Positions 44,894 to 46,945 of a DNA stretch of 64,000 bases are shown here, in pieces. The first letter of the stretch is position 1. Each line of letters begins with the position of its first letter. The notes beneath the pieces are model-generated. The model worked only from the letters and a program-made list of their open reading frames with translations, ran no database searches and was not told the DNA's origin. Origin of the DNA: Chromobacterium piscinae. GTDB lineage: Bacteria > Pseudomonadota > Gammaproteobacteria > Burkholderiales > Chromobacteriaceae. The stretch is taken from assembly GCF_021129175.1 (NCBI RefSeq), contig NZ_JAJOHV010000058.1:62001-126000 (forward strand), read 5' to 3'. A program made the position numbers and the translations under genes.

Positions 44894-45304
44894 ATGAGCT
44901 CTTCCCTCCAAGCCCCCGACAACCTCGCCATCGTCCGCGGCATGTTCGCCGAGCTGATCGAAGCCGGCCGCGTCGACGACGACAGCATCGCCCGCTACAT
45001 GGCGCCCGGCTACCGCCAGCGCGTCGACGGCCGCGAGCTGGATCTGGCCGGCTTCAAGAGCCACCTGCGCATGCAGCGCGAAGTCGTGGAAAAAATGGCG
45101 GTGCATTTCCTGGCCGTCGCCCAGGACGACGACTGCGTGCTGACCCACCATCAGGTGCATGTCGCCAAAAAAGACGGCAGCGCCGCCCGCTTCCAGGTGC
45201 AGGCCCATATTACGCTGCGCGACGGCAAAATCGTCGCCTGCGACGAGCTGACCCGCCAACTGGAAGGCCCGGCCGCCGACCATGACCTCGGCTCGCGCCA
45301 CTGA
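44894..45304 (+). CDS. SnoaL-like / NTF2-fold protein
   Basis: A 136-residue protein of the cone-shaped NTF2-like fold, seen in polyketide cyclases and many small enzymes or binding proteins. The pattern is an N-terminal helix region (NLAIVRGMFAELIEAGRVDDDSIARYMAPGYRQRVDGREL), then strands VHFLAVAQDDDCVLTHHQVHV, FQVQAHITLRDGKIVACDEL. The ATG at 44894 has AGGAG 8 bases upstream. It is divergent from an AraC regulator. No catalytic function can be assigned. Confidence 0.75.
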   Translation: MSSSLQAPDNLAIVRGMFAELIEAGRVDDDSIARYMAPGYRQRVDGRELDLAGFKSHLRMQREVVEKMAVHFLAVAQDDDCVLTHHQVHVAKKDGSAARFQVQAHITLRDGKIVACDELTRQLEGPAADHDLGSRH

Positions 45305-45316
45305 AGCGCAAGGGGC

Positions 45317-45346
45317 TTGACGCGGCGCGCGGCCCCGTGTTTTGAT
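45317..45346 (+). promoter_or_regulatory. Candidate promoter of the trpS attenuator
   Basis: TTGACG (45317-45322) and TTTGAT (45341-45346) are 18 bases apart. The predicted start point falls at or next to the A of the leader-peptide ATG (45353), so the transcript could be leaderless. Confidence 0.45.
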
Positions 45347-45352
45347 GAAGGA

Positions 45353-45406
45353 ATGAAAACCGCACCCGCATTCGCAATCCGATTTTGGTGGTGGCGCCTC
45401 TCCTAG
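45353..45406 (+). CDS. trpS leader peptide with three consecutive Trp codons
   Basis: A 17-codon frame, MKTAPAFAIRFWWWRLS, ends in TAG at 45404-45406. Codons 12-14 are TGG TGG TGG, far beyond chance for a rare amino acid. No properly spaced ribosome site precedes the ATG (AAGGA abuts it), consistent with a leaderless or weakly initiated peptide. Stalling of the ribosome at the Trp codons when charged tRNA-Trp is scarce would free the downstream RNA to form the antiterminator. Confidence 0.8.
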   Translation: MKTAPAFAIRFWWWRLS

Positions 45407-45475
45407 GCGGCGCCGGCGAACGCATATGCAATAAAAACCCGGAGGCTGCCGACAAGGCGCACCGGGTTTGTTTTT
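45393..45475 (+). promoter_or_regulatory. Tryptophan attenuator upstream of trpS
   Basis: Three competing structures are visible. The pause hairpin pairs GGCGCC (45393-45398, overlapping the last leader codons) with GGCGCC (45409-45414). The antiterminator pairs GGCGGC and CCGG (45406-45416) with CCGG and GCTGCC (45439-45450). The terminator pairs AAACCCGG (45435-45442) with CCGGGTTT (45462-45469), followed by a T-rich tail. The antiterminator uses the left arm of the terminator, as attenuation requires. Confidence 0.78.
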
Positions 45476-45477
45476 AG

Positions 45478-46557
<1,080 letters not shown>

Positions 46558-46639: not shown

Positions 46640-46945
46640 ATGGACAGCGTTTTTCAATGCCAGGACCTAGCTGAAGTCAGGGAACAGATAGACCGCGTCG
46701 ACCGCTCGCTGGTGGCGCTGATCGCCGAGCGCGGCATTTACGTGCGCCAGGCGGCGGCGTTCAAACACAGCCGCGAAGAAGTGGAAGGCGGCAAGCGGGT
46801 GGACCAGGTGATGCGCCGCGTCGAGCGGCTGGCCGGCGAACTGGGCGCGGACCCCGCGCTGACCGCGGCGGTCTACCGCACGATGATAGAGTACTTCGTC
46901 GCCGACGAGATGGCGGCTTTCCGCGAACGGGCCGCCGGAGATTGA
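46640..46945 (+). CDS. Chorismate mutase, AroQ/PchB type
   Basis: Small all-helical chorismate mutase (or isochorismate-pyruvate lyase) of 101 residues. Family features are LAEVREQIDRVDRSLVALIAERGIYVRQAAAFK, with the first-helix arginine and the RxxLVxxIAxR/AAxFK pattern, then RVDQVMRRVERLAGELGADPALTAAVYRTMIEYFV. It lies 82 bases after trpS on the same strand. In phenylalanine/tyrosine synthesis it would divert chorismate from tryptophan. No siderophore genes are near, which favours mutase over lyase. Confidence 0.8.
   Translation: MDSVFQCQDLAEVREQIDRVDRSLVALIAERGIYVRQAAAFKHSREEVEGGKRVDQVMRRVERLAGELGADPALTAAVYRTMIEYFVADEMAAFRERAAGD

Follow-up and report, generated by a model that had tools for sequence, protein, structure and literature searches.

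A putative tryptophan-codon attenuator in front of an auxiliary tryptophanyl-tRNA synthetase gene in Chromobacterium piscinae and its relatives

The stretch of DNA analyzed here (64,000 nucleotides from Chromobacterium piscinae, hereafter called the window) carries, downstream of a gene for a SnoaL-like protein, a short reading frame with tryptophan codons, a series of predicted hairpins, and a gene for a tryptophanyl-tRNA synthetase (TrpRS), whose features are compiled in Table 1. The genome contains two trpS genes, whereby the other copy comprises 414 codons and scores over the cut-off of the NCBIfam model NF008922, which the window gene does not. The best solved relatives of the window protein are the TrpRS II structures 1yi8 and 2a4m (E 1.4e-122; next best E 8.7e-68), whose chains we take to be those of Deinococcus radiodurans TrpRS II. 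The original prediction had placed an attenuator in front of trpS without further distinction. The candidate attenuator does lie upstream of a trpS gene, but the gene in question is an auxiliary second copy of the TrpRS II type, which is referred to as trpS2 in the following. The type II chorismate mutase gene downstream, which has the same orientation, may be co-transcribed with trpS2 and share its attenuator. Of 110 loci, 35 have a chorismate mutase gene near trpS2 and 7 have a SnoaL gene (in both counts, flank lengths differ and some genomes are counted twice), and the leader remains with trpS2 whether or not a SnoaL gene lies upstream. A second attenuator was looked for in front of trpE in the same genome, and no frame with two consecutive Trp codons (WW) is present within 500 nt upstream of the four trpE-family genes. 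At locus L175, a trpE-family gene over cut-off, there is a 38-codon frame with a Trp-Arg-Trp motif 172 to 55 nt upstream, and at L176, likewise of the trpE family, a WW frame is located between 637 and 532 nt upstream, in a region in which a different frame is open for about 400 codons.

Table 1. Positions of the leader, hairpin, and gene features around trpS2 in the window.
Feature	Position	Strand	Remarks
-35 box TTGACG, leader promoter candidate	45317..45322	+	TTGAC spacing kept in family leaders
Weak -10 box TTTGAT	45341..45346	+	18-nt spacer; ends 6 nt before leader ATG; assigned by sequence
Leader peptide frame, MKTAPAFAIRFWWWRLS followed by stop	45353..45406	+	17 codons; between SnoaL-like gene and trpS2
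TGG TGG TGG, proposed stall site	45386..45394	+	three consecutive Trp codons; read from sequence
1:2 (pause) hairpin	45386..45418	+	-19.5 kcal/mol
2:3 antiterminator	45406-45416 with 45439-45450	+	-17.5 kcal/mol
3:4 terminator	45435..45475	+	hairpin 45435-45469, U-run 45471-45475; -21.1 kcal/mol
trpS2, auxiliary tryptophanyl-tRNA synthetase	45535..46557	+	340 aa, TrpRS II type; TIGR00233 over cut-off
Chorismate mutase type II gene	46640..46945	+	82 nt downstream of trpS2; PF01817

The leader frame begins with an ATG at 45353 and ends with a TAG at 45404-45406, and the three consecutive Trp codons that had been predicted for a leader between the SnoaL-like gene and trpS are indeed present. For comparison, a sample of 61 genomes of the family Chromobacteriaceae was used, 58 of which have trpS2 at E 1e-90. 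Of these 58 orthologues, 57 have a leader frame with WW upstream, the only trpS2 without it being that of locus L140 in genome G030. Under the same rule, a WW leader was found at none of 30 upstream regions of housekeeping trpS paralogues, which were the ones examined among 57 genomes with a paralogue match, and dinucleotide shuffles of the family upstream regions gave a WW leader in 50 of 5800 and a WWW leader in 1 of 5800 cases. Thus, Trp-rich leaders, whose presence in front of the trpS genes of relatives had been proposed as a check, were recovered with two to three consecutive TGG codons and with their hairpin arms in nearly all Chromobacteriaceae relatives.

The promoter candidate shows a similarly fixed geometry. 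In 56 of the 57 family leaders the distance from the start of TTGAC to the leader ATG is 36 or 37 nt, compared to 5 of 20292 background positions; in the sole exception (L137) it is 45 nt, whereby an in-frame ATG 9 nt upstream would give 36 nt. Boxes resembling a -10 element were seen by eye at a similar place in the leaders of relatives, and among 52 leaders of named genomes that do not belong to the family set, 27 have a TATAMT box ending 6-8 nt before the ATG and 25 do not. None of four Shine-Dalgarno-like words occurs 4-16 nt before the leader ATG in the 57 family leaders; in the window, AAGGA directly abuts the ATG and is too close by the usual Shine-Dalgarno spacing. Because the promoter spacing is conserved, these data support a transcript start at or next to the leader ATG, which would make the leader peptide a leaderless one. 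A consensus promoter and terminator scan of 44900-45700 missed both elements by its rules, as the -10 box of the leader promoter has no A at position 2 and the stem of the terminator has an internal loop.

The pause hairpin, the competing antiterminator, and the terminator that had been predicted for this region were all found within 45386-45475. The outer stem of the terminator pairs 45435-45442 with 45462-45469 and encloses an inner stem, and GTTTTT then extends to 45475. In the predicted folds, region 2 is common to the 1:2 and 2:3 hairpins and region 3 (within 45439-45450) is common to 2:3 and 3:4; therefore, the hairpins are mutually exclusive on paper. The stop codon abuts region 2 at 45406, and according to masked folding, for which a ribosome footprint size was assumed, a ribosome at the stop codon would cover region 2. 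When region 2 was masked, the 3:4 structure was predicted, and when region 1 was masked and the transcript was ended at 45456, the 2:3 structure was predicted, so that the model folds yield the one or the other structure depending on the region covered, which is in line with the alternative structures originally suggested. When the complete 3:4 sequence is included, masking of region 1 yields the terminator as the minimum-energy fold. Therefore, the switch would need kinetic, co-transcriptional folding, on which classical trp attenuation likewise relies.

In the window, the terminator is more stable than its shuffles (z -3.3, with 1 of 200 as low; z -3.7 in a separate run). The entire stretch 45338-45480 reaches only z -1.75 (12 of 200), and the 2:3 antiterminator alone is no better than shuffles in the window (z -0.66). 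The family median fold z values are -3.65 for 1:2, -1.66 for 2:3, and -3.96 for 3:4. Hence, it is the comparative data, namely the family median z and the kept pairing, that argue for the antiterminator. The pairing was assessed in an alignment (A1) of 49 distinct sequences, from which eight identical sequences and one row without leader had been removed, and in which all 49 sequences carry the core TGGTGGCGC unchanged. Paired cells make up 96.3% in 1:2, 93.8% in 2:3, and 89.0% in 3:4, and all three values exceed those of the six slid controls. For 3:4 there is a modest covariation: four pairs changed on both sides, a count that 48 of 500 shuffles reach and that two slid controls exceed with 5, and the covariation score was matched by 1 of 500 shuffles. 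For 2:3 the covariation is weak, with 54 of 500 shuffles matching the paired percentage and 11 of 500 the covariation score. For 1:2, in which one arm is fixed by codons, no covariation beyond shuffles was detected in the 49 sequences, and one slid control has a higher covariation score. RNAalifold on the whole alignment recovered only part of the helices, probably due to exclusive structures and indels that blur the signal.

Rfam gave no match in the window at gathering score. The family RF00513 (Trp_leader) aligns to 45383-45475 but reaches 13.8 bits (E 3.2) and stays below the family cut-off, which is 41. A permissive search also returned an sR4 match, which lies on the opposite strand and was rejected as a chance hit. 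A T-box leader was likewise rejected: Rfam lists none at gathering score anywhere in the window, nor any up to E 10 over 45300-45545.

With regard to the enzyme, one motif residue separates the two TrpRS types. The position, which judging by the motif presumably corresponds to His43 of the Bacillus enzyme, is occupied by Gln in 57 of 58 family trpS2 products (one has Arg) and in 80 of 80 relatives from named genomes, and by His in 30 of 30 housekeeping paralogues. Gln is also present in the 10 plasmid-record genes and the 18 new loci of the phylum draw described below, irrespective of whether they have the leader or not. For Bacillus TrpRS, it has been reported that the exchange of His43 for Asn (H43N) confers indolmycin resistance (PMC4899734, accessible portion). 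Thus, the motif Gln hints that TrpRS2 is possibly inhibitor resistant. At the thresholds used, both trpS types are present in 54 of the 61 family genomes, and the housekeeping trpS alone is present in three (G029, G031, and G032). Four family genomes with 99% completeness (G039, G041, G042, and G043) have the trpS2 type only, and all four have kept the WW leader, whereby the G043 copy (L134) has a poor U-run. Therefore, trpS2 is apparently able to serve as the only TrpRS.

In order to describe how far the leader reaches beyond the family, several sets of genomes can be considered. An even draw of 300 Burkholderiales genomes contained 42 genomes that carry the gene at E 1e-100. Of their 43 gene copies, a WW leader is present at 27 and absent at 16. 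An even draw of 398 Pseudomonadota genomes contained 25 with the gene, seven of these genes being common to the order draw, and the WW leader is present at 19 and missing at 6. Among the best 80 of at least 586 named relatives, a set that overlaps the family, 65 have a WW leader and 15 do not, and a few of the 65 look accidental (L078, L104). These counts have to be compared bearing in mind that the scanned position range differs slightly among the leader rules for the family and named sets, the order, and the phylum, that one-Trp leaders were not counted as matches, and that L202, which follows a looser W.W rule, was excluded. Matches were also found in 102 plasmid records. Ten of these were picked by hand, some of them chromosome-sized, and nine have a WW leader, including the Escherichia coli record NZ_CP090457.1 (L222) and two from Streptomyces; among the ten, the gene on a conjugative Rhizobium plasmid is without a WW leader. 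Altogether, the conservation of the putative attenuator extends well beyond Chromobacteriaceae and is of unusual breadth.

Some further observations were made on these sets. The 102 plasmid records with a match include 22 from Klebsiella and 24 from Staphylococcus, and several of the matches cover part of the query. L198 and L200 have no WW leader, and by eye a TTGACA box, GC-rich arms, and a U-run remain there, which is perhaps a decayed or altered attenuator. At L213 and L227, single-Trp leader-like frames are visible by eye before hairpin-like arms. Searching the own genome with an RNA model of the leader revealed no second copy (next best E 1.5), and a search of 369 genomes of the class with the model R1 returned the own genome only. 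This result is little informative, as the model stems from one family and 11 candidates were scored in each genome (E 0.001), and leaders were widely recovered in the draws that started from the protein.

As the best reading of these data, we consider it very probable that the auxiliary TrpRS gene is controlled by ribosome-mediated transcription attenuation. The original reading of the region as a trp-type attenuator with a possibly leaderless leader has thereby withstood the comparison of codons, arms, and fixed promoter distance among relatives. According to this model, transcription would start on the leader ATG or no more than two bases from it. When Trp-tRNA is ample, the ribosome would pass the Trp codons and proceed to the TAG at 45404, where it would cover region 2 (45406-45416), so that the 3:4 terminator would form and trpS2 would remain untranscribed. 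When charged tRNA-Trp is scarce, either because Trp is lacking or because the housekeeping TrpRS is inhibited, the ribosome would stall on the TGG codons and cover region 1, upon which region 2 would pair with region 3, the terminator would be blocked, and trpS2 would be made.

It might also be that leader and hairpins control translation, whereby the position of the ribosome frees or hides the trpS2 start and the hairpin is no working terminator. Such a mode of action would fit the finding that a 9-nt window with at least six T is absent from the 30-85 nt past the leader stop in 13 of the 57 family leaders, i.e., these have a hairpin without a good U-run, and termination may there depend on a further factor, or translation may be the level of control. 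However, the stem in the window is immediately followed by GTTTTT, trpS2 starts at 45535, which is 59 nt past the U-run, and the drawn hairpins (folded to 45480) fall short of this start, and we regard translational control as improbable. The 13 leaders include five loci of the genus Chromobacterium (L015 and L017-L020), in which leader and hairpins are kept and the stem is followed by CCAGCAG instead of a U-run. Even less probable is that the leader peptide or a short attenuator RNA works in trans, besides or instead of attenuation in cis. In Sinorhizobium meliloti, peTrpL and rnTrpL have been reported to act in trans, and the proposed leaderless form resembles rnTrpL as described in the accessible part of PMC7298713, but from genus to genus the leader differs greatly in its N-terminal half, with WW and the arms unchanged. 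Finally, that a chance WWW frame lies beside the ordinary terminator of the SnoaL-like gene and that trpS2 has its own downstream promoter would agree with the single promoter-like site that a simple scan of 44900-45700 lists, within trpS2, and with the lack of an Rfam match at gathering score, but it is hardly credible given that 57 of 58 orthologues share the frame, the Trp codons, the arms, and the distance to the promoter, that SnoaL genes were seen at only 7 of 110 loci, and that a WW leader precedes none of 30 paralogues.

If transcription attenuation is indeed at work here, cells whose main TrpRS is blocked would switch on a TrpRS that is possibly insensitive to the inhibitor, which would bear on how they survive natural TrpRS inhibitors. 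It would also mean that a well-understood RNA switch is placed before spare synthetases common across much of Pseudomonadota, where Rfam does not flag it in the window. As a broader interpretation, which we put forward tentatively and with slightly less than even confidence, the Trp-codon attenuator and the Gln-type TrpRS could constitute one portable unit in Pseudomonadota, Streptomyces, and plasmids, i.e., a spare synthetase with its own sensor that is triggered by starvation or inhibitors, and that in four family genomes has replaced the housekeeping enzyme as the sole, self-regulated TrpRS. The genomes with trpS2 only provide a natural test of the attenuator as a homeostatic control.

Among known systems, proteobacterial trpL (RF00513) resembles the window leader in its tandem Trp codons, regions 1-4 with exclusive pairings, and a stop codon between regions 1 and 2. 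However, trpL controls biosynthesis, whereas the window leader precedes a synthetase gene. Attenuation of a synthetase gene is found with pheST, which encodes a housekeeping synthetase. In gamma-proteobacteria, pheST is subject to classical attenuation (PMC1262725, accessible portion). The amino acid concerned is a different one. In S. meliloti, the trpL-trpE(G) transcript begins with the leader ATG, as stated in the available text of PMC7298713, and the same is implied for the window by promoter spacing; in S. meliloti, the attenuator controls trpE(G), whereas that of the window would control trpS2 from a start that is deduced. For Caulobacter, a small leader coding sequence has been listed on the trpS mRNA (PMC4117421, accessible portion). 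No trpS leader is described in the accessible part of PMC4974804, and no trpS is mentioned in the main text of PMC2965389. The literature considered, which is chiefly open-access, contained no recognised description of trpS attenuation in beta-proteobacteria, and Vitreschak 2004 (cited in PMC8079986) may cover some cases. TrpRS II has a reported link to nitric oxide synthase (PMC9437257, accessible portion). By sequence, Deinococcus TrpRS II is the closest solved relative of the window protein, and it has Gln at the same motif position in the 1yi8 alignment.

The closest parallels come from Streptomyces. Vecchione and Sello reportedly described an auxiliary, antibiotic-resistant Streptomyces TrpRS gene in 2010. 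Attenuators have been predicted before trpS genes of Streptomyces, including trpS2 of S. avermitilis (PMC1262725), and a trpL2-trpS attenuator with a leaderless leader has been listed from RNA-seq for S. lividans (PMC8079986), in both cases according to the accessible portions of these papers. As in the window, a Trp leader peptide and hairpins precede trpS there. The S. lividans leader differs in that it has one Trp codon and no U-rich stretch past the hairpins, whereas the window has WWW and a U-run (PMC8079986, accessible portion). In the light of these precedents, the initial view that the use of attenuation for the synthetase gene itself is unusual has to be revised, and T-boxes are not in use at every Gram-positive trpS gene, contrary to what had been assumed. 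Compared to the window protein, the two TrpRS encoded on Streptomyces plasmid records have identities of only 44% and 41%, although both likewise combine a WW leader with Gln. Thus, while attenuated trpS is already known from Streptomyces, the proteobacterial case appears to be new and is of unusual breadth.
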